A stretch of 64,000 nt of DNA from Rhabdophis nuchalis (Eukaryota; Chordata; Lepidosauria; Squamata; Natricidae), in NCBI GenBank assembly GCA_039707465.1, contig CM077651.1:23983019-24047018 (forward strand), written 5' to 3'. This document shows positions 14,433 to 57,440 of the stretch, in pieces. Every line of letters begins with the position of its first letter. Positions within the stretch are counted from its first letter, which is position 1. The translations under genes and the position numbers were made by a program. Below the pieces are notes generated by a model that was not told the DNA's origin, did not search any database, and saw only the letters and a program-made list of their open reading frames with translations.

Positions 14433-16013
14433 CTATTTATTTTATTTATTTTATTTATTTTATTTATTTTATTAAATTTATACCCCGCTCTTCTCCTTGT
14501 TAGGACCCAGGGCGGCGCACAGGCATTATTAAAACACAATATACAATATCAATTAAAATATATTAAATTACTAGACCTGTGCTAAAAACCCATGTTAAAA
14601 CCATACCAAATTGATTTATTTTTAAAAAGTCAGAAGTAGGGGCTATCCTAGGCCGGCTTGTTGGAATAGATACGTCTTAAGACGTATGCGGAAGAGGCGG
14701 AGGTCCGAGATAGTGCGGAGGTCGGGGGGTAGGTCGTTCCAGAGGTCCGGGCCCGCCACAGAGAAGACCCTTCCCCTGGGTGTCGCCAACCGGCATTGCC
14801 CCGCTGACGGCACCCGGAGAAGACCCTCTCTGTGGGAGCGGATCGGATGAAGGGATGTATGGGGCAGGAGGCGGTCTCGTATATAGCTAGGCCCCGAGAC
14901 ATGGAGCGATTTAAAGATGGTCGTCAGCACCTTGAAGCACACTCGAAAGGCCACAGGCAGCCAGTGCAGCTCGCGCAGGAGAGGTGTTACGTGGGTTTGC
15001 CTTGAGGCACCCATAATCACCCGCGCGGCCGCATTCTGTACTAACTGTAGCTTTCGAGTGCACCTCAAGGGGAGCCCCATGTAGAGAGCGTTACAGTAAT
15101 CCAGCCGGGATGTCACAAGCGCTTGAGTGACTGTGCGAAGGGCTCCCCGGTCCAGTAAGGGGCGCAACTGGCGTATCAGGCGTACCTGATAGAACGCCCC
15201 CCTGGCCACGGCCGTCACATGGTCCTCCATGGACAGCCGGGAATCCAGGAGGACGCCCAAGTTGCACGCCCTCTCCATGGGGGCCAGTTGTTCGCCCCCA
15301 ATGGCCAGTGTTGGACTTATCTGGCTGAACCGGGGTGCCGGAAACCACAGCCACTCGGTCTTGGAGGGGTTGAGTCTGAGTTTGTTACTACCCATCCAGA
15401 TCCGTACGGCCTCCAGACACCGGGAGAGCACCTTGACGGCATCGTTGGGGTGGTTTGGGGTGGATATGTACAACTGAGTGTCATCAGCGTACAGATGGTA
15501 TTCCACCCCAAAACCACGGATGATCTCGCCCAGCGGCTTCACGTAGGTGTTAAACAGGAGTGGCGAGAGGACCGACCCCTGAGGGACCCCACATGTGAGT
15601 GGCCTCGGGGACGACCTCTGCCCTCCTGCCAACACCCATTGCGACCGACCAGAGAGGTAGGACGAGAACCACCGTAAGACGGTGCCTCTCAGCCCCAACC
15701 CCCCCAATCGGTGCAATAAGATACCATGGTCGATGGTATCAAAAGCTGCTGAGAGGTCTAATAGGACAAGGATAGAGGAACAACCTCTATCCCGTGCCCT
15801 CCAGAGATCATCCACCAACGCGACTAATGCCGTTTCGGTGCTGTGACCGGGCCGGAAGCCGGACTGGCGCGGGTCTAGATAACCAACTTCCTCCAGATGT
15901 CGGGGAAACTGTTGGGCCACCACACTCTCAACAACCTTCACTAAAAAGTGAAGGTTGGAGACGGGACAATAGTTCTCTAATAAAGCTGGGTCCAGGGATG
16001 GTTTCTTGAGGAG
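14433..16013 (-). mobile_element. L2-clade LINE, 5'-truncated but with intact RT frame
   Basis: This is a 1.6-kb minus-strand insertion. The open frame (next entry) enters from the truncated 5' side near 16010 and runs to 14643. The 3' UTR and a (TAAAATAAAT)n-like tail follow down to 14433. The lack of frameshifts across more than 1.3 kb suggests a relatively young insertion. The N-terminal endonuclease is missing, so it cannot move by itself. Confidence 0.92.
14643..15941 (-). pseudogene. L2 ORF2 reverse transcriptase (5'-truncated)
   Basis: There are 432 codons from the first internal methionine, and the frame is open upstream of it to about 16010. Ordered RT motifs are visible: [13 protein letters not shown] near residue 31, motif A LLDLSAAFDTIDHG near residues 60-73, [14 protein letters not shown] near residue 119, and the catalytic YADD box in [13 protein letters not shown] near residue 148. 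The C-terminal domain [20 protein letters not shown] ... [13 protein letters not shown] is typical of the L2 clade. All three RT catalytic aspartates appear present. In full-length elements the product primes reverse transcription at a nicked target. Here the APE endonuclease part is missing and the methionine is not a native start. Confidence 0.88.
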
Positions 16014-16603: not shown

Positions 16604-16725
16604 CAGGGGTCTCCAACCTTTGCAATTTTAAGTCTGAAGGACTTCAGCTCCCAGACTTTGCTGGCTGGAGAATTCTGGGAGCTGAAGTCCTTCAGACTTA
16701 AAGTTGCAAAGGTTGGAGACCCCTG
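16604..16725. mobile_element. Palindromic hAT MITE with perfect TSD
   Basis: A 122-bp near-perfect palindrome, CAGGGGTCTCCAACC ... GGTTGGAGACCCCTG. The arms are built from 'aagtctgaaggacttcagc'. TTCTATAC flanks both sides (16596-16603, 16726-16733). Same family as 23478. Confidence 0.95.
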
Positions 16726-23469: not shown

Positions 23470-23477
23470 GATTAGGC

Positions 23478-23612
23478 CAGGGGTGGGCAAACTTTGCAAC
23501 TTTAAGTCTGAAGGACTTCAGCTCCCAGACTTCTCCAGCCAGCAAAGCTGGCTGGAGAAGTCTGGGAGCTGAAGTCCTTCAGACTTAAAGTTGCAAAGTT
23601 TGCCCACCCCTG
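23478..23612. mobile_element. Palindromic hAT MITE with perfect TSD
   Basis: CAGGGGTGGGCAAACTTTGC is mirrored by GCAAAGTTTGCCCACCCCTG. The TSD is GATTAGGC (23470-23477, 23613-23620). The 135-bp palindrome shares its arm core with the element at 16604 but has different terminal bases. Confidence 0.95.
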
Positions 23613-23669
23613 GATTAGGCTATTTGTTCATAGACCCTGAAAGTGAAAGAAACCATACTGTTTATGGTT

Positions 23670-23796: not shown

Positions 23797-24117
23797 CCAA
23801 GTAAAAGAAAAATCATGATTCATAGACTCCATCAAATTAACTGAAATCGTGACTTATTGAAAATGGCAAACGCTCTTAGATGGCAGTGATTATATCATGA
23901 TTTCCATCTGGATACAATATACTGGTTACTAAAAATTGGAACGATAAATGGCAATACAATCCTACGTCTGCTTTGCTTAACAGCATGTCCTACTGGGTTC
24001 ATTGGCTACACTCCTAGCTAAACATCTATATAGATTGCATCATTCTCATATATATATATATGTGTGTGTGTATGTGTGTGTGTGTTAGTTTTTATGAGCT
24101 GATCAATAAATAAATCA

Positions 24118-24174
24118 GAGAGACTAGGATAGATCTATTTCGAGCTTTTTAGCTCTCATCAGCTAGTCATACTC
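24118..24174 (-). ncRNA. Type I hammerhead ribozyme motif, copy A
   Basis: Minus strand, in order: outer stem I GAG, loop TAT, inner stem I GACTAG, core CTGATGA, stem II GAGCT-AAAA-AGCTC, GAAA, stem III AUGG-type hairpin reading TAG-AT-CTA closed by A15.1-U16.1, C17, then CTAGTC (perfect partner of GACTAG), T, and CTC (partner of GAG). All conserved nucleotides are canonical, including U at position 7 and G-C at 10.1-11.1. The predicted cut lies between plus-strand bases 24128 and 24127. Stems differ from the array copies but all pair. Activity is inferred. Confidence 0.88.
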
Positions 24175-24258
24175 TTACTGGGATTTCAACCGGGGCTGTA
24201 TTGCATATCAGGTAGGATCCTTTAACCATTCAGCCAGCCTGGCTCTCCCAATTGCATC
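24175..24258 (-). other. tRNA-like head of ribozyme element A
   Basis: On the minus strand 'gccaggctggctgaatggtt' followed by AAAGGATCC resembles a class II (Leu/Ser-type) tRNA A-box region. GGTTGAAATCC (24183-24193) is a near-consensus B box. It ends about 12 nt upstream of the hammerhead. It may be an internal RNA polymerase III promoter; function is inferred. Confidence 0.65.
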
Positions 24259-24517
24259 AGATATATATATATTGCTGATCAATATATATATATATTGATC
24301 AGCTCATAAAACTAACACACTTATCTAAAAAATTTACACAATGTAATTTCATGGTTCTCTGTCTAGATGGTCTCTGGTGATGAGCCGAAAGGCAGAGAGG
24401 GAAACAGTATGTCTCCTCCCTTAATGGGGCCCTAACAGGAAGTTGTGAAAACAATTATATATCTGCCTTGGATGGCTTGCACCCTGCAATGCATCCAAGG
24501 CTTCTGGATGCATTGCA

Positions 24518-24548
24518 GGTTCGAATCCCAGTGACCCGGTTCGAATCC
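24518..24548 (+). promoter_or_regulatory. Two consensus B boxes upstream of ribozyme B
   Basis: GGTTCGAATCC occurs at 24518-24528 and again at 24538-24548, each an exact RNA polymerase III B-box consensus. The duplication 'ggttcgaatcccagt' is 20 bp apart. The A-box part of the head is poorly preserved in this copy ('gatggcttgcaccctgc'). Confidence 0.6.
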
Positions 24549-24551
24549 CAG

Positions 24552-24612
24552 TTGAGTGTGGCCAACTGATGAGAGCTAATAAGCTCGAAATAGATCTATC
24601 TTGGTCTCTCAA
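24552..24612 (+). ncRNA. Type I hammerhead ribozyme motif, copy B
   Basis: Outer stem I is TTGAG (24552-24556) with CTCAA (24608-24612), the longest outer helix of the set. The internal loop is TGT against T. Inner stem I is GGCCAA with TTGGTC (one G-U pair). The core is CTGATGA (24566-24572), stem II GAGCT-AATA-AGCTC, then GAAA (24587-24590), stem III TAG-AT-CTA, and cleavage triplet AUC ending at 24600. Every required core base is present. Predicted cleavage is between 24600 and 24601. Confidence 0.9.
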
Positions 24613-24710
24613 ATTTAAATAAATTTATTGATCAGCACATAAAACCTAACACACACAGACACACACATATATATATGAGAGAATATTTTCCATTGTAAAT
24701 GGCTGATGTA

Positions 24711-24787
24711 ATCAGGGAAACCGGATAGCTCAAGGCATAGAAAGGCTTGCCTGATATGCTGGAAAGTGCCGGTTCAAATCCCAGTAG
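24711..24787 (+). promoter_or_regulatory. tRNA-like head of ribozyme element C
   Basis: An A-box-like GGATAGCTCAAGG (24723-24735) and an exact B box GGTTCAAATCC (24771-24781) are separated by 35 nt. The block looks like a degenerate tRNA and ends just before hammerhead C. It suggests RNA polymerase III transcription reading into the ribozyme. Confidence 0.7.
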
Positions 24788-24844
24788 GAGTATGGCCAGC
24801 TGAAGAAGGCTAATAAGCCTGAAATGGATCCATCCTGGTCTCTT
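24788..24844 (+). ncRNA. Type I hammerhead ribozyme motif, copy C
   Basis: Outer stem I is GAG with CTT (one G-U), loop TAT against T, inner stem I GGCCAG with CTGGTC. The core is CTGAAGA, with position 7 being A, which is tolerated. Stem II is AGGCT-AATA-AGCCT, then GAAA, stem III TGG-AT-CCA, and AUC ends at 24834. The 10.1-11.1 pair is A-U and not G-C, which may weaken cleavage. Predicted cut between 24834 and 24835. Confidence 0.85.
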
Positions 24845-24915
24845 ATTTATTAAATCAGCCCTTAAAAATCTAACATATATATATATATGTTTTCTGAGGT
24901 TTTCGCGGGTGTTTG

Positions 24916-25192
24916 TATGTAGGTCTTTGGTTGTTCGGGTTTTCTCCCGCGTAGAATTGGAAGTATCTTCACGACGTTTCGATGAAATCTCATTCATCAT
25001 CTTCAGGCTGGTGCTTCCGGCTTGGTGCTTCCGGCTTGGTGCTTCCAGGAGCACCAAGGAAGCTCCTGGAAGCACCAAGCCGGAAGCACCAAGCCGGAAG
25101 CACCAGCCTGAAGATGATGAATGAGATTTCATCGAAACGTCGTGAAGATACTTCCAATTCTACGCGGGAGAAAACCCGAACAACCAAAGACC

Positions 25193-25198
<6 letters not shown>
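24916..25198. mobile_element. 283-bp foldback element, Penelope-type motif
   Basis: The near-perfect arms begin TATGTAGGTCTTTGGTTG and turn around a short spacer at 25053-25061. The arms contain 'cctgaagatgatgaatgag' followed by 'catcgaaacgtcgtgaag', and 'tctacgcgggagaaaaccc'. The same framework recurs in the foldback at 56502-56645. Repeated 'cggcttggtgcttc' units lie near the centre. The right arm runs directly into the (TA)n tract preceding the ribozyme array. Confidence 0.8.
25096..25155 (+). ncRNA. Degenerate hammerhead-like motif in foldback arm
   Basis: CTGAAGA (25108-25114), one unpaired T, stem II GATGAA/TTCATC (25116-25121 with 25128-25133, loop TGAGAT), GAAA (25134-25137), then CGTC as a minimal stem III plus cleavage triplet. 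Proximal stem I is only GC/GT, but GGAAG and CTTCC further out can pair across an internal loop. The mirror copy lies on the minus strand of the left arm. Weaker than copies A-C; it could be a relic. Confidence 0.45.

Positions 25199-25267
<69 letters not shown>
25199..25267. repeat. (TA)n microsatellite
   Basis: About 34 uninterrupted TA units between the foldback and the tandem array. Confidence 0.97.
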
Positions 25268-25270
<3 letters not shown>

Positions 25271-25307
25271 ATAAATGTTTTTTTAAAGGAATGATTAATA
25301 ATTAATT

Positions 25308-25364
25308 AAGAGACCAGGATGGATCCATTTCGGACTTCTTAGTCCTCGTCAGCTGGCCATACTT
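25308..25364 (-). ncRNA. Type I hammerhead ribozyme motif, array unit 1
   Basis: Minus strand: AAG, TAT, GGCCAG, core CTGACGA (position 7 is C), stem II GGACT-AAGA-AGTCC, GAAA, stem III TGG-AT-CCA, AUC, CTGGTC, T, CTT. Inner stem I is 6 bp with one G-U pair, the outer stem is 3 bp, and 10.1-11.1 is G-C. Predicted cleavage lies between plus-strand bases 25318 and 25317. The very short stem III resembles hammerheads reported to act as dimers in Penelope-like elements and retrozymes; TGGATCCA is self-complementary. Confidence 0.9.
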
Positions 25365-25370
25365 TCCTAC

Positions 25371-25442
25371 AGGGATTTGAACTGGTGCTCTCCAGCATTC
25401 GAAGCAGGCTTCTCTATGCCTTGAGCTAACCAGCTTCCCTGA
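25371..25442 (-). promoter_or_regulatory. tRNA-like head of array unit 1 (A and B boxes)
   Basis: On the minus strand the A-box-like TGGTTAGCTCAAGGC (25418-25432) and B-box-like AGTTCAAATCCCT (25371-25383) are spaced as in tRNA genes, and the block ends 7 nt before the outer stem of the hammerhead. The same block recurs every 344 bp (25715, 26059, 26403, 26747 and 27091 onward). It may drive RNA polymerase III transcription of the array; not proven. Confidence 0.7.
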
Positions 25443-25651
25443 TTACATCATCCTTTCCACAGGACTTTATAGATGAAGATACTATGTTACAGCTTCCTGC
25501 TAGGCCTGTTTAAGGGAGGAGACAAACTTGTCATCCTTCTCTGTCTTTCGACTCCTCTTTGAGATCATCCAGACAGAGACCTATTAAATTGCTGCTGTCT
25601 TTTTTAGATATGTGTTAAATGTTTTTTTAAAGGAATGATTAATAATTAATT

Positions 25652-25708
25652 AAGAGACCAGGATGGATCCATTTCGGACTTCTTAGTCCTCGTCAGCTGG
25701 CCATACTT
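25652..25708 (-). ncRNA. Type I hammerhead ribozyme motif, array unit 2
   Basis: Identical in all stems and core bases to array unit 1. Predicted cleavage is 344 nt from the neighbouring site. Confidence 0.9.
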
Positions 25709-25995
25709 TCCTACAGGGATTTGAACTGGTGCTCTCCAGCATTCGAAGCAGGCTTCTCTATGCCTTGAGCTAACCAGCTTCCCTGATTACATCATCCTTT
25801 CCACAGGACTTTATAGATGAAGATACTATGTTACAGCTTCCTGCTAGGCCTGTTTAAGGGAGGAGACAAACTTGTCATCCTTCTCTGTCTTTCGACTCCT
25901 CTTTGAGATCATCCAGACAGAGACCTATTAAATTGCTGCTGTCTTTTTTAGATATGTGTTAAATGTTTTTTTAAAGGAACGATTAATAATTAATT

Positions 25996-26052
25996 AAGAG
26001 ACCAGGATGGATCCATTTCGGACTTCTTAGTCCTCGTCAGCTGGCCATACTT
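25996..26052 (-). ncRNA. Type I hammerhead ribozyme motif, array unit 3
   Basis: Identical in core and stems to unit 1. The unit differs outside the ribozyme by one base upstream (aaggaacg). Confidence 0.9.
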
Positions 26053-26339
26053 TCCTACAGGGATTTGAACTGGTGCTCTCCAGCATTCGAAGCAGGCTTC
26101 TCTATGCCTTGAGCTAACCAGCTTCCCTGATTACATCATCCTTTCCACAGGACTTTATAGATGAAGATACTATGTTACAGCTTCCTGCTAGGCCTGTTTA
26201 AGGGAGGAGACAAACTTGTCATCCTTCTCTGTCTTTCGACTCCTCTTTGAGATCATCCAGACAGAGACCTATTAAATTGCTGCTGTCTTTTTTAGATATG
26301 TGTTAAATGTTTTTTTAAAGGAACGATTAATAATTAATT

Positions 26340-26396
26340 AAGAGACCAGGATGGATCCATTTCGGACTTCTTAGTCCTCGTCAGCTGGCCATACTT
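26340..26396 (-). ncRNA. Type I hammerhead ribozyme motif, array unit 4
   Basis: Identical in core and stems to unit 1, and shares the aaggaacg variant with unit 3. Confidence 0.9.
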
Positions 26397-26683
26397 TCCT
26401 ACAGGGATTTGAACTGGTGCTCTCCAGCATTCGAAGCAGGCTTCTCTATGCCTTGAGCTAACCAGCTTCCCTGATTACATCATCCTTTCCACAGGACTTT
26501 ATAGATGAAGATACTATGTTACAGCTTCCTGCTAGGCCTGTTTAAGGGAGGAGACAAACTTGTCATCCTTCTCTGTCTTTCGACTCCTCTTTGAGATCAT
26601 CCAGACAGAGACCTATTAAATTGCTGCTGTCTTTTTTAGATATGTGTTAAATGTTTTTTTAAAGGAATGATTAATAATTAATT

Positions 26684-26740
26684 AAGAGACCAGGATGGAC
26701 CCATTTCGGACTTCTTAGTCCTCGTCAGCTGGCCATACTT
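26684..26740 (-). ncRNA. Type I hammerhead ribozyme motif, array unit 5
   Basis: Same as unit 1 except one stem III loop base: minus strand TGG-GT-CCA. The change falls in the 2-nt loop and leaves all pairs intact. Confidence 0.9.
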
Positions 26741-27027
26741 TCCTACAGGGATTTGAACTGGTGCTCTCCAGCATTCGAAGCAGGCTTCTCTATGCCTTGA
26801 GCTAACCAGCTTCCCTGATTACATCATCCTTTCCACAGGACTTTATAGATGAAGATACTATGTTACAGCTTCCTGCTAGGCCTGTTTAAGGGAGGAGACA
26901 AACTTGTCATCCTTCTCTGTCTTTCGACTCCTCTTTGAGATCATCCAGACAGAGACCTATTAAATTGCTGCTGTCTTTTTTAGATATGTGTTAAATGTTT
27001 TTTTAAAGGAATGATTAATAATTAATT

Positions 27028-27084
27028 AAGAGACCAGGATGGATCCATTTCGGACTTCTTAGTCCTCGTCAGCTGGCCATACTT
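27028..27084 (-). ncRNA. Type I hammerhead ribozyme motif, array unit 6
   Basis: Identical to unit 1. It lies in the last, partial unit, which keeps its tRNA-like head but is cut off about 90 bp beyond it. Confidence 0.9.
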
Positions 27085-27177
27085 TCCTACAGGGATTTGA
27101 ACTGGTGCTCTCCAGCATTCGAAGCAGGCTTCTCTATGCCTTGAGCTAACCAGCTTCCCTGATTACATCATCCTTTG

Positions 27178-27222
27178 TCTCCTCCCTTAAACAGGCCTAG
27201 CAGGAAGCTGTAACATAGTATC

Positions 27223-27284
<62 letters not shown>

Positions 27285-27330
27285 GAATAATTTTCACAGC
27301 TCCTGTTCAGGGTCCCTTTAAGGGGAGGAG
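27178..27330. repeat. Inversion junction with (TA)n centre
   Basis: At 27177/27178 the array flips: 'gtctcctcccttaaacaggc' through 'catagtatcttcat' (27178-27225) is the reverse complement of the unit body. A (TA)n run (about 27226-27282) follows. Then 'atgaagaataattttcac ... aggggaggag' continues a diverged unit in the original orientation. The whole forms an imperfect palindrome around the TA tract. Confidence 0.85.
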
Positions 27331-27509
27331 ACTTAACATCTTCCCTCTCTGCCCTTCGACTCAACCCAGAGTCATCCAGACAGAGAACCAAATTAGATTA
27401 CTGCTGTGTGACATTTTTTAGATATGTGTTAGATTTTTTTTTTTAAGGGCTGAAAATAAAGAGACCAGGATGGATCCATTTCAGGCTTATTAGCCTTCTT
27501 CAGGAAGCA
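27283..27509 (-). mobile_element. Diverged unit with broken hammerhead (copy D)
   Basis: The body resembles the array unit ('ccctttaaggggaggagac', 'gactcaacccagagtcatcc'). The hammerhead at 27463-27509 (minus) has CTGAAGA, stem II AGGCT-AATA-AGCCT, GAAA, stem III TGG-AT-CCA, AUC and CTGGTC. The upstream stem I strand is replaced by TGCTTC, which cannot pair. The break is at the core/stem I boundary, where the adjoining 640-bp palindrome begins. It is predicted to be inactive. Confidence 0.8.
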
Positions 27510-27784
27510 TCAAACCTACTTATCCACCAACTCTAAAGCAAGCACCTTCAATGCAAGGGTCAGGTTTGTAAGTCTTCAAGTTTTTTTAAAAATGTATTTA
27601 TTCTCAGGTGTTGGTGCATAGATTAATTTGATAGAACCAATAAACTAAATAAACCTGAAATATATATAGATATAGATATAAATATATCTGTCTGGATTAT
27701 CTCTGGGTTGAGTCGAACGGCAGAGAAGGATGACAGTTTGTCTCCTCCCTTAAATGGGCCTCAAAACAGGAGCTGTGAAAATAT

Positions 27785-27832
<48 letters not shown>

Positions 27833-28142
27833 GTGTGTGTGTATGTGTGTGTGAGAGAGAATATTTTCACAGCTCCTGTTTTGAGGCCCATTTAAGGGAG
27901 GAGACAAACTGTCATCCTTCTCTGCCGTTCGACTCAACTCAGAGATAATCCAGACAGATATATTTATATCTATATCTATATATATTTCAGGTTTATTTAG
28001 TTTATTGGTTCTATCAAATTAATCTATGCACCAACACCTGAGAATAAATACATTTTTAAAAAAACTTGAAGACTTACAAACCTGACCCTTGCATTGAAGG
28101 TGCTTGCTTTAGAGTTGGTGGATAAGTAGGTTTGATGCTTCC
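27503..28142. repeat. 640-bp near-perfect palindrome
   Basis: The left arm starts GGAAGCATCAAACCTACTT and the right arm ends AAGTAGGTTTGATGCTTCC. The centre is an AC/AT/GT simple repeat near 27822. Only isolated mismatches are visible, such as 'gggttgag' against 'ctcaactc'. The arms include the element body 'gtctcctcccttaaatggg' and a segment 'tttattggttctatcaaatt'. The 64-codon frames on the two strands (27697-27891 and 27754-27948) encode nearly the same sequence because of the symmetry. Confidence 0.95.
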
Positions 28143-28732
28143 TAAATTGGTGCTACATACCACTAAGTATATAACAATAACAACAACAACAACAACCAGA
28201 AGTAAAAGCCCAGGATAGGAAGACGAGAAAAATAATGACTCATGGCCTTCATCTGCCCAGCAACATAGACAGATTCTACCTACCAAGGAAAATTGGTGGG
28301 CGTGGAATGTTGCAAGTACATCAGATGGTTGAAGAAGAAAAAAGAGCATTGGAAGAATATCTGAAAGGCAGTGAAGACAATGGACTGAAGCTAGTATACC
28401 AGGAAGGCTTAGTGACTACTAGAGAGGCCAAACTGGCATACAAGAATGACCAAATGAAGAACAGAATGGAGTCATGGAAAGACAAACATTACAAACATTA
28501 CAAACATTACAGGGCCAAAACCATTTTAAAAAATAGCAGGGGAAACAGATAATAAGACCTGGCAATAGCTAAGAGCAGATAATTTGAGGAAAGAGACAGA
28601 GGGGCTAATTTCGGCTGCACAAGACCAAGCCTTCAGAACAAATGTATACAAAGCCAGAGTTGAGAAGATAGTAACATACAGCAAATGCCACCTATGCAAA
28701 GAAACTGAAGAAACAGTGGACCAACTGGTGAA

Positions 28733-41930: not shown

Positions 41931-44345
41931 AGATCATGACCCAATTAATTCAAGGCCCCACACACGAGGGTGGACATACACCGGATCTCATCTTTGTCTC
42001 TGGCCAGTGGAAAAGTGATCTGATTATAGGGGATATAGTCATCACGCCCTTGTCATGGTCAGATCACTCACTTCTCCGGCTCGACTTTCCAACCGCTACC
42101 CCCCTCCGCGGGGAGGCGGAACCTGAGTCACCAATTTGGTTCCGCCCCAGGCGCCTGATGGACCCTAATGGGTTCCAGGCGGCGCTTGGGCCATTTCCTG
42201 TACCCCTGACCCGCGCCCCGATGGAGGACCTCGTGGCCGCATGGAATACTGCGACCACGGGAGCCTTGGATCGGGTCACGCCCTTGCGGCCTCTCTTGCG
42301 GCGGCGAGCCACCCTGGCTCCTTGGTTTACCGAGGAGCTGAGGGTGATGAAACGCCACAAGAGATGCCTAGAGAGAAGATGGAGGACTACCCGATCTGAA
42401 TCTGACCGGACACAGGTAAGAGCCCATTTACGGACTTACATTGTGGCGCTGAGAGTGGCCAAACGTCATCATTGTGCCACTCTCATAGCATCCGCAGATA
42501 ACCGCCCTGCCGCCCTGTTTAGGGTGACCCGCTCCCTCCTTCAACAGAGGGTGCGGGAAGCCCCGCTACAGGGTAGAGCAAAGGAATTTGTGATTTATCT
42601 GCAGGAGAAAATCGCTCAGATACAGAACGAGTTAGCCCCCATTGATGGCCCAGTGGGTTGCCACGAGGCGGATCTTGTTTGGGAGGAGTTTGACTCCGTT
42701 GCTTCCGAAGATATGGACAGGTTACGTGGGCGACTGCGAGCCACCACATGTTTATTGGACCCGTGTCCCTCCTGGCTTGTACTGGCATCCTGGGAGGTGA
42801 CATGAGGCTGGCTCCAAGTGGTTGTCAACGCATCCTTGAGTGAGGGTTCCTTGCCTGCTTCCCTAAAAGAAGCTATGGTGAGGCCCCTCCTCAAGAAGCC
42901 CTCTTTGGATCCAGCTTTACTAACCAACTATCGTCCAGTCTCCAACCTTCCCTTTTTGGCGAAGGTTGTTGAGAGTGTGGTGGCACAACAGTTTCCCCGT
43001 CACTTGGAGGAAGTTGAGTATCTAGATCCGCGCCAGTCCGGCTTTCGGCCCGGGCATAGCACCGAGACGGCATTGGTCGCGTTGGTAGATGATCTCTGGA
43101 GGGCCAGAGATGGGGGTCTCCTCCTACCTCTCTGGCCGGTCGCAATTTGTGTTGACAGGGGGGCAGAGGTCGACCTCGAGACCCCTCACATGTGGGGTGC
43201 CTCGGGTCGGTCCTCTCGCCCCTCCTATTCAACACATATATGAAGCCGCTGGGTGAGATCATCCGTGGTTTTGGGGTAGAGTATCATCTCTACGCTGATG
43301 ATACTCAGCTGTATATATCTACCCCAAACCACCCCAACGATGCCGTAGCGGTGATGTGCCAGTGCCTGGAAGCCGTGCGGATCTGGATGGGAAGTAACGG
43401 ACTCAGGCTCAACCCGACCAAGACCGAGTGGCTGTGGTTTCCGGCCGCCCGATTCAACCAGCTCACTCCATCGCTGGCCATAGGGGGCGAACATCTTGCC
43501 CCTGTGGATGGGGCGCGCAACTTGGGTGTCCTCCTGGATACCCGGCTGTCCATGGAAGATCAGGTGACAGCCGTGGCCAGGAGGGCATTTTACCAGGTTC
43601 GCCTGGTACGCCAGTTGCGCCCCCTATTGGACCGGGATGCCCTCCGCACAGTCACTCATGCTCTCGTGACATCCCGACTGGACTATTGTAACTTTCTCTA
43701 CATGGGGCTCCCCCTGAGGTGCACCCGGAGACTGCAGTTGGTGCAGAATGCAGCCGCGCGAGCAATAATGGGAACCGTTAGGTTCACCCATGTAACACCG
43801 CTCTTGCGCGAGCTGCACTGGCTGCCTGTCGTCTTTCGGGTGCGCTTCAAGGTGCTAGTTATCATCTTTAAAGCGCTCCATGGCTCGGGACCTAGCTATC
43901 TGCGGGATCGGATCCTGCCCCATACATCCTCACGGCCGATTCGCTCCCACAGAGAGGGACTACTCCGGGTGCCATCCACTAGACTCTGTCAGCGGGCGAC
44001 GCCCAGGGGAAGGGCTCTCTCTGTGGCGGGCCCTGCCCTCTGGAACGACCTCCCCCCAGATATTAGAACAACCACGGACCTCCGTTCCTTCCGTCTGAAA
44101 TTGAAAACGCATTTTTTCTGCTTGGCCGGCCTAGGGTAGCCTCTCTACTATAGTATTATAGGGTTATAGGGTTTTAGTGAATTGGCATTGGGAATTTTAG
44201 CGCAGGGTTTTACTGTTTAATTTGCTTTTAATTGTTTTGTATATTTATGTATATTTATTGTTTTAACTTCCCTGTGCACCGCTCCGAGTCCCCTTGGGGA
44301 GAGGGAGCGGTCTAGAAATTAAAATTATTATTATTATTATTATTA
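41931..44345 (+). mobile_element. L2-clade LINE, 2.4 kb, internally deleted
   Basis: The frame 41936-42805 starts in the last part of the APE endonuclease (GGHTPDLIFV ... SWSDHSLL). It continues through the linker (LAPWFTEELRVMKRHKRCLE) and is lost near 42800. Frame 42818-43243 gives [35 protein letters not shown] and [18 protein letters not shown]. Directly after [10 protein letters not shown] about 120 bp are missing compared with the copy at 14643, removing motif A (AFDTIDH). Frame 43192-44139 resumes with [19 protein letters not shown] and the C-terminal domain. The 3' end has 'tccgagtccccttggggag' and an (ATT)n tail. Dead because a catalytic aspartate is absent. Confidence 0.9.
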
Positions 44346-55714: not shown

Positions 55715-57440
55715 CCCCCCATATTTTTCTATTTTATTCAAAAAATGAAAATACAAAATGCAAAATAATTTTTCACCCAAAGACAAAACTAGACAAAAAC
55801 ACTAAAAAAATGTGAGCTAAAAGGACAAAGAACAAAAACACATATTATCCCCTGCTAGTTGAACACTGACAAATATATTGCAAAAACAATAACTTCCCCA
55901 CCCCCTTGCAAAACTTTTATAAACTACGACAGTACATTTGTCTGCAACCCAATCTGACCTGGCATACATTATACTCACACCCACCCACACACCCACCCAC
56001 ACATCCACCCACACAAATAGTTAACAGGTTAATCAACAGCAGAATTAAATTGCAAAGCCTTCTGTTATCAATCTGCTATTGTAATTAACTCGTAGAAAGT
56101 CTGCAATAGTTTCTTATCTACCACAGATCACCCCAATCATTAATCTCCAATCTGTCCAGGATTAAATAGCCTCTTAATAATAAAATATTTCCTTAGGATT
56201 TTAATTGGGAAGTTTCCCAACAATTGCACCTTATTTCCCAAGTTCCGAAGTCTCTGTTGTAAATATCTTTGCAGCATCCCTTGTTCAAAAAGCTTCTTTA
56301 AAAAATACAGGATCCATCTTGCCAAGGAAGTCCAGTCCATCATTTGTCAATTCCATTACCTCAACACTTCTTATATTTATATTCCTTTCCATTTTTTTTC
56401 TGGCAAATCTGTAATTTTCAGACCAGATTCTTTCTTTGCCTGGCAGCAAATCAGATTCCGATTCATCGAGTTGTGAATCAAGTCCAATAGTTGTTTTCCC
56501 ATGTAAGATTGAGATTGTCTTGGCAACGTTTCGGCAAGGTCCGCTTTACTCGCTTGTGCGAGTAAAGCACGAAGCCGAAAACACCAGCCTGAAGATGGCG
56601 AGTGGGACCTTGCCGAAACGTTGCCAAGACAATCTCAATCTTACACGGGAAAAGACCCAAATGCAACAAGACCATTTAAAAAATCTGTAAATTGGAGAGC
56701 ATTCTTTTTTCAAATCATTTCCAGAAAGCTTTATCTCTTTTTGGGGACATTATGAAAACACAGTGTTCCTTCCAAGGACAAGAGAAGTAGATAAATCATA
56801 AACCAGCATCCACAGAGAACAGCTGAGATATTTTTTTTCCAAAATAAAAAAAGATGAAAAGAAAGAGAATTTTCCCATCAAAAGTTAAAAAATAAAGATC
56901 AGATTTTTTAAGGAGCCGAAAAGAACAAAGTTTGTAATATAATCCTGTATAAGTGTAAGTCCAAAAGGATGACTTTCACTGCCAGAATGTGTATTTTCAT
57001 CGCTGACTTCCTTAAGGCAAAAGTTAAAGTGGGTTAGCGTTCAATGATAAACAATGAGGGAACAGAAAAAAAGTTGTAAAAGTCCAGCAAGGGATTATCA
57101 AATAGACCAGCAGTCAACTAATCAGATAAAATGTAAATCAGAGAGTATAAACTTTAGAAAATGGAATTAAAACCTAGGCGTGCTTAAAAAAAAGAACAGC
57201 TGAAGGGAAAAGATGGAAAGAGACCCAACCTTCCGTTCACGTCTTACCAAGAGTTGCGGTCTTCAAGATCCCCTCCTCTCTGCAAGTCTGAAGATTGTCT
57301 TGGATCCTTCCTAGTCTTTTCTTCAAAAACAGGGAGCAAGATGCCAAACAATCGGCTTTGGCAGCAAAACCCAGTTGTTCTAGGGTGGGAGAAAAGAAAT
57401 TGCCCACTGCTCAGCATGCCATCTTGGGGGAAGGCCCTTC
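55715..57440 (-). mobile_element. L1-like element, decayed, with foldback inside
   Basis: On the minus strand the right end begins 'cttcccccaagatggcatgc', like an L1 5' end. A long non-coding leader follows, then a frame near 56343-56140 with LARWILYFLKKLFEQGML and LRNLGNKVQLLGNFPIKIL. The left end is AT-rich. No RT is visible. A foldback lies at 56502-56645 and a CCCACACA-rich tract near 55976-56015. The assignment to L1 (or an L1 derivative lacking ORF2) is tentative. Confidence 0.45.
56502..56645. mobile_element. Foldback element, Penelope-type motif
   Basis: The arms TGTAAGATTGAGATTGTC and GACAATCTCAATCTTACA continue inward through 'ttggcaacgtttcggcaagg'. An inner hairpin GCTTTACTCGC/GCGAGTAAAGC lies at 56543-56568. 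The right arm contains CTGAAGA (56589-56595), stem II GGCGAG/CTTGCC (one G-U), and GAAA (56615-56618), the same hammerhead-like order as at 25108, with stem II sequence changed but paired. Stem I pairing is poor. Confidence 0.7.

Follow-up and report, generated by a model that had tools for sequence, protein, structure and literature searches.

What kind of element is a 344-bp tandem repeat in which each unit carries a hammerhead ribozyme motif? It could be a local satellite or a mobile element and, in the latter case, it must be asked which enzyme moves it and from what RNA template. The repeat considered here lies in the window, by which we mean the whole 64-kb stretch of DNA that was analyzed (C9:23983019–24047018 of a 1.918-Gb assembly). 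The element bears on which enzyme moves animal retrozymes and on whether RNA circles are their intermediate.

Papers are cited below by PMC number, for what the available portions of their text state. Type I hammerheads, mostly in tandem repeats, are known from cnidarians to mammals, those of mammals being isolated motifs, and a role of Penelope-like elements (PLEs) in the spread of retrozymes has been proposed because the two co-occur and both have hammerheads and tandem copies (PMC7229834, PMC7761336). A published proposal derives the conserved intronic hammerheads of vertebrates from an element of this kind that was present in an ancestral amphibian (PMC3088659), and intronic hammerheads in reptiles have been described in a review (PMC6155905). 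We found no report of hammerhead retrozymes in reptiles in the literature searched, the coverage of which was partial, so that earlier reptile repeats are possible.

Hammerhead motifs in the tandem array

The array and its hammerheads, as delimited in the window, are the following:

25264–27176, minus strand: tandem array (Tandem Repeats Finder), period 344 bp, 5.6 copies, 99% matches, six hammerheads
25306–25366, minus strand: hammerhead u1, C3 at 25352, predicted cleavage after 25318
25650–25710, minus strand: hammerhead u2, C3 at 25696, predicted cleavage after 25662
25994–26054, minus strand: hammerhead u3, C3 at 26040, predicted cleavage after 26006
26338–26398, minus strand: hammerhead u4, C3 at 26384, predicted cleavage after 26350
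26682–26742, minus strand: hammerhead u5, C3 at 26728, predicted cleavage after 26694; stem III loop altered at one position
27026–27086, minus strand: hammerhead u6, C3 at 27072, predicted cleavage after 27038

The first-pass annotation had described six consecutive copies at an exact 344-bp spacing, each with a complete type I hammerhead. Six hammerheads are indeed present and neighboring ones are spaced by exactly 344, but the array amounts to 5.6 units rather than six whole ones. The hammerheads are complete in all six minus-strand copies, with CUGACGA, a 5-bp stem II with a G–C pair at its base, GAAA, a short stem III, an AUC triplet and a stem I with UAU opposite U. The internal units show three single-base differences, two of them at one and the same position. 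All three are A to G in the sense strand, and A-to-G editing was considered as the source of these variants and rejected, three being too few.

A strict descriptor found nine hammerheads in the 64-kb window: the six of the array and three others, at 24162 (minus), 24566 (plus) and 24800 (plus). It found none in the 64 kb outside the cluster formed by the array and its older copies, and none in 200 dinucleotide-preserving shuffles. The unit folds better than shuffled sequence (z = −2.33, with 2 of 100 shuffles as good). There are no open frames of 90 aa or longer within the array, and coding sequence for a Penelope-like reverse transcriptase (RT) and GIY-YIG is absent from the unit.

Older copies and the anatomy of the unit

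Older relatives of the unit lie on both sides of the array:

24081–24262, minus strand: older copy c1, with head, hammerhead (C3 at 24162) and linker
24296–24451, plus strand: older fragment c5, with linker and 3′ domain
24520–24660, plus strand: older copy c2, with partial head, hammerhead (C3 at 24566) and linker
24671–24885, plus strand: older copy c3, with leader, head, hammerhead (C3 at 24800) and linker
27287–27500, minus strand: older copy c4 (27503, minus), with a hammerhead lacking stem I, linker and 3′ domain
27687–27790, plus strand: older fragment c6, with 3′ domain; mirror copy at 27856–27958, minus strand

Comparison with these relatives gave the order of the unit as leader, tRNA-like head, hammerhead, linker and 3′ domain. 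Two box-like 11-mers were located in the first unit by comparison with the general consensus sequences:

25373–25383, minus strand: B-box-like 11-mer, 10/11
25418–25428, minus strand: A-box-like 11-mer, 10/11

By the same consensus sequences, the A box scored 10–11 of 11 in three of four copies and 9 of 11 in c2. The B box scored 10–11 of 11 in all four copies, but B-like sites of at least 10/11 occur 25 times window-wide. Neither ARAGORN nor Rfam, including a search with the head alone, found a tRNA in the head. The missing TTTT on the sense strand of the array was considered as a sign of Pol III read-through; this argument was dropped because it was not significant (shuffle P = 0.34). One T-run occurs in c3 and one in c4.

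The 3.8-kb cluster (24048–27832) holds eight of the eleven (AT)5-or-longer tracts of the window, each of which, by eye, is at or near an end of a hammerhead-family or PLE sequence. A near-perfect 648-bp palindrome (27499–28146; arms of 324 nt, 98%) with an (AC)n(AT)n center cuts off the c4 hammerhead. Two perfect palindromes elsewhere in the window (23477–23613 and 16604–16725) have related arms with CAGGGGT near the start; these presumably resemble short DNA-transposon fold-backs with hAT-like ends.

Base pairing was compared in five intact, distinct hammerheads (two array variants, c1, c2 and c3). Paired bases occupied 85 of 85 cells, with no pair broken, and 7 of the 17 base pairs, spread over all three stems, were altered on both sides. 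The observed paired share, two-sided changes and covariation score were each attained by 0 of 500 shuffles, while further pair types, one of the five measures, did not exceed the shuffles (488 of 500 as high). Slid alignments yielded no pairs with two-sided change. The damaged copy c4 had been left out of this count because its stem I is destroyed; with c4 added, 95.1% of the cells were paired and 7 pairs were altered on both sides, a number reached by 3 of 500 shuffles.

An Rfam search, which the first-pass annotation had suggested as a check, gave a divided answer. At the gathering score there were no hits in the window, while at an E-value of 0.1 there were eight matches to HH9 (RF02275), with 27.5–33.2 bits against a cut-off of 52. 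All of these fell within the cluster: six on the array, one for each unit (27.6–28.3 bits), one on c1 and one on c2. HH9, which we take to be the RECK-intron hammerhead, is not claimed as the direct parent of the array hammerhead because the score is below the cut-off. The genome does contain an HH9 copy above the cut-off (L064:1504–1573, C1:378970325; 88.7 bits), the only such match reported. Judged by the range of HH9, this copy makes an amniote host probable; a reptile or snake is likely, the repeat types suggesting a squamate.

The sequence of stem III is palindromic over 10 nt, with AUGGAUCCAU in c3 and in five units of the array, and AUAGAUCUAU in c1 and c2; in u5 the palindrome is broken. 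In folds of a lone copy, stem III is weak, with a pairing probability of 0.08 for an array unit and 0.00 for c1. Co-folding of two copies, tried with u1 and with c1, gave a double hammerhead with a 10-bp stem III. By this model, a tandem array is a place where hammerhead pairs can form.

Copies across the genome

The unit had at least 258 matches in the genome (40 scored of 612 candidates). We analyzed 36 loci, namely the window and 35 other places that were the best among the matches listed; being best matches, they are biased toward young copies. One block was taken at each locus, defined as the largest run of matches of ≥95% identity in which gaps did not exceed 60 nt. Further blocks were excluded, for example the opposite arm at L017, which is separated by other sequence.

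The 36 loci hold 188 exact array-type hammerheads, and among their 167 full units there are 137 that match the reference unit at 100% identity, which upholds the recent amplification that had been suggested from the near identity of the units in the window. No match to the exact family pattern was found in viral contigs. As a 344-bp tandem repeat with a type I hammerhead (the retrozyme class being 150–450 bp), a GC content of 0.41, which is under the 50% retrozyme criterion, and dispersed copies at 36 loci, the unit is retrozyme-like, as had also been proposed. The description as a tandem array needs a qualification: the repeat is tandem, but it is no local satellite, rather one of many dispersed insertions that look as if they were made by reverse transcription. 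The genome of a probable amniote that keeps an HH9 ribozyme also holds a recently mobile hammerhead element, many copies of which look recent.

Two 3′ ends and two arms

In the window, the array is bounded by the following features:

25196–25267: (AT)36 at the 3′ end of the array, site A
27177–27225, plus strand: inverted second arm, a short stub ending at site B (BLAST span 27174–27232; 3 nt in common with the array at the joint)
27226–27281: (AT)28 at the 3′ end of the inverted arm

We scored 53 outer 3′ ends in the 36 blocks: 30 lie at site A, 21 at site B and two elsewhere, at unit positions 132 and 62; at the latter, an N run begins. Site A corresponds to unit position 339–344, reading ...TTTAACAC then AT. 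Site B is a BLAST edge at 144; by eye, it reads ...TATCTTC then AT, a few bases earlier. An (AT)3 or longer tract follows directly after 42 of the 53 ends, and 51 of 53 have (AT)≥3 within 60 nt, compared to 220 of 5000 random 60-mers from the window. The two ends lacking a nearby (AT)n are the one at the N run and one (L010) that abuts an older unit. At several A ends, (AC)n comes first.

Seventeen of the 36 blocks are two-armed, and all of them have a minus-strand arm on the left and a plus-strand arm on the right, i.e., they are head-to-head with the 5′ ends meeting in the middle. Fifteen of these pair an A end with a B end; in one (L026), A is paired with the end at 132, which is 12 nt short of the B edge, and in one (L038), B is paired with the N run. 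The chance of no symmetric pair in 15 is about 2 × 10−5 if the arms are independent (9 × 10−6 for 16). Among the one-armed blocks, 14 end at A and 5 at B. By BLAST, the shortest arm measures 32 nt and the longest 2849 nt; at the joints, overlaps reach 22 nt and gaps reach 53 nt. The insertion in the window is one A/B case, with a long A arm (edge 340) and a B stub between the two AT tracts. For target repeats longer than 4 bp, a further retrozyme criterion, we found by eye an 11-bp repeat at both ends of one locus (L031), and AT repeats would hide others.

Palindromes and arrays can arise from chimeric reads or mis-assembly, and since four blocks (L010, L015, L038 and L042) end in N runs, copy numbers may be wrong. 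It is nevertheless very improbable that the pattern itself is such an artifact, considering that the identical two ends, the orientation rule and the AT flanks recur at 36 loci that differ in their flanks and arm lengths.

Some loci contain variants that are common to part of their units: A320G in two neighboring units of the window, G63A in two distant units of L033, and an A-run insertion, which may be slippage, in five of the ten units of L032. Such sharing within one locus would be expected if a tRNA-headed SINE had been amplified in tandem at the DNA level, by slippage or unequal exchange, with the hammerhead as a passenger, and squamates commonly carry tandem repeats derived from SINEs (PMC10702118). 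The repeat units of that study are, however, ≈70–290 nt and always shorter than the SINE, whereas here the whole 344-nt element is repeated. Also against a SINE-derived satellite are the spread of near-identical units over many contigs (36 loci), the use of two fixed 3′ ends that mostly lie in (AT)n, the 17 loci with an inverted second arm and the 11-bp target repeat. The A/B rule weakens it further; we consider this origin improbable.

The 5′ ends behave differently from the 3′ ends. Contrary to the expectation for run-off, only 1 of 34 lies within 5 nt of the predicted cleavage site. They are mildly clustered, with 9 of 34 at unit positions 303–325 (2.3 expected), just downstream of the predicted cleavage site, and 7 of 34 at 81–102 (2.2 expected), these ranges having been chosen after looking.

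A Penelope-like element with the same insertion pattern

A palindrome made of two PLE fragments adjoins the array:

24889–25052, minus strand: PLE fragment with a PLE-type minimal hammerhead, left arm of the palindrome, ending at P2 beside (AT)n
25062–25196, plus strand: PLE fragment, right arm of the palindrome, ending at P1 beside (AT)36

The palindrome has CUGAAGA...GAAACGUC cores over an ATG, much like the PLE hammerheads that have been described (PMC7761336, PMC11167929). A second, older PLE-like fragment at 56502–56690 has a PLE-type hammerhead (GUU triplet, by eye) and is partially palindromic.

The PLE was surveyed in 28 locus records, with the window counted once and nine being retrozyme loci chosen for their PLE matches. 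Copies of ≥93% identity were counted (n = 52); two of these are overlapping matches on one L030 stub, and L044 and L045 have a common flank and are maybe one insertion duplicated. The copies end at P1 (query 133–136) in 24 of 52 cases, at P2 (query 157–162) in 24 and elsewhere in 4, and (AT)3 occurs within 3 nt after 39 of the 52. The distance between P1 and P2 is 27 nt on the query but ≈29 in the DNA because the query is without two bases. Fourteen head-to-head pairs, with their members at most 120 nt apart, were found: 11 are P1/P2 and three have one end elsewhere, so that all 11 pairs with both ends at these sites are asymmetric. Two plus–minus neighbors (one P1/P2, one P1/P1) are not head-to-head.

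Since the same AT target, head-to-head orientation and two-site pattern are found in both, the retrozyme and the PLE share target, orientation and two-site rule. The link to PLEs made in the first-pass annotation is strengthened by the PLE adjoining the array and by this rule in 11 of 14 PLE pairs, the other three being unscorable. Because the retrozyme insertions follow a rule that also holds for a PLE in this genome, they indicate the enzyme and narrow the choice of template, although the common habit could reflect shared AT targets, not a shared enzyme. At one locus (L030:1956–2785), a retrozyme arm is joined 5′ to 5′ with a PLE fragment in an AT-flanked stretch, which speaks for the link, though a later PLE insertion may also have produced it.

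At least 151 matches to PLE endonuclease pieces were found (150 scored of 4631 candidates). The stop-free frames listed include ones of 608, 643 and 690 aa and one of 2063; the 608-aa frame (C6:64590910) lies inside the stretch of retrozyme locus L016. The GIY-YIG match of the PLE piece is below the Pfam cut-off (17.1 vs. 22.6 bits), and the pieces are assigned to PLEs, putatively, by motif and neighborhood.

Inverted pieces are also produced by twin priming, and LINE insertion by target-primed reverse transcription with twin priming is another way in which the two-armed blocks might have formed. RT frames (Pfam RVT_1) are present in the window at 14646–16013 (minus) and 43156–44136 (plus). 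The 3′ ends, however, run into AT or AC repeats and have no A-tail, and the two-site rule agrees with that of the genome's own PLE and resembles what has been published for the anole PLE (PMC11167929). There is little probability left for a LINE origin.

A proposed route of insertion

Most likely, the element is an amniote retrozyme that is mobilized by PLE machinery, the two ends of a cut AT repeat serving as starting points for reverse transcription, perhaps on a circular 344-nt RNA. The 344-bp unit would then be a non-autonomous retroelement of the retrozyme type with a structured 3′ domain. Its multimeric transcripts would be cut by the hammerhead, probably in pairs via the palindromic stem III, into 344-nt RNAs, which would probably be closed into circles. 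The PLE enzyme would cut AT-repeat DNA, and both DNA ends would prime reverse transcription, one at site A and one at site B, for one to many laps, after which the two cDNAs would be joined head-to-head. In the window, a single insertion between (AT)36 and (AT)28 would comprise 25264–27176 as its long arm (A) and 27177–27225 as its short arm (B).

As for the template, a monomeric 344-nt circle may serve as the rolling template for a pair of PLE enzymes in an amniote, a proposal to which we give close to an even chance. With just one A site and one B site per circle, both the strict A/B pairing and the arms of many laps would be explained. If true, ribozyme-made circles would be a direct transposition intermediate of animal retrozymes. 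The partial unit variants in the window, L032 and L033 argue against one circle that was copied a single time; they would fit a mixed multimer or subsequent DNA exchange. The anole PLE enzyme, moreover, uses unprocessed RNA (PMC11167929), which also weighs against the circle.

The same observations favor another template, the uncut multimeric transcript of an array already in place, moved by the PLE enzyme with the ribozyme perhaps dispensable for transposition: variants are shared by some units within a locus, and the anole PLE reportedly inserts mainly unprocessed RNA, its hammerhead mutants inserting equally well in vitro (PMC11167929). Since a multimer has many A and B sites, A/A and B/B pairs would be expected to be as common as A/B pairs, whereas all 15 fully scorable pairs are asymmetric. 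A multimer would also yield A/B pairing if a bound pair of enzymes consistently offered one site of each kind. On balance, we regard an uncut multimer as rather unlikely.

Comparison with known systems

As far as the searched literature shows, two things are new: a recently mobile tandem hammerhead in a probable amniote, and a two-site, two-arm rule that ties it to a PLE. The closest parallels to the unit itself are the amphibian retrozymes, including newt satellite 2 and axolotl Rtz331 and Rtz353, which likewise have a type I hammerhead with a weak stem III. Those of the axolotl are also 330–350-bp tandem repeats in a genome with PLEs, and they cleave better as dimers in assays; one class has a palindromic tetraloop (PMC7229834). 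The present unit differs in its probable occurrence in an amniote, its putative tRNA-like head and its head-to-head (AT)n insertion signature, which is read directly.

The SMα element of schistosomes has a Pol III head. By its description, SMα is, like the present unit, a SINE-like element with a type I hammerhead (PMC8490949). Of the two, only the present element has been described with a palindromic stem III and two-armed insertions. The SINE-derived satellites sSat1–3 of squamates resemble it as tandem repeats, tied in scaled reptiles to tRNA-headed elements; the word hammerhead is absent from the paper on them (PMC10702118). In contrast to sSat1–3, the present unit is the whole element, with all the parts seen in dispersed copies, and its insertions look reverse-transcribed. 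HH9 (RF02275) is the best Rfam family for the present hammerheads, yet the scores stay below the 52-bit cut-off, and HH9 is a single conserved copy whereas the present hammerheads are repeat copies.

The mode of insertion most resembles that of PAc, a PLE of the green anole. Its enzyme cuts and extends both strands, favors AT-rich DNA and starts at two adjacent sites on the RNA, and the element carries a minimal hammerhead (PMC11167929); an AT-rich target and, in the PLE beside the array, a minimal hammerhead are found here too, and the insertions point to two RT start sites and the use of both strands. PLEs encode their own enzyme, whereas the 344-bp unit encodes none. For PAc, no strand difference in the start site was seen (PMC11167929), whereas here the arms of fully scorable pairs always differ.
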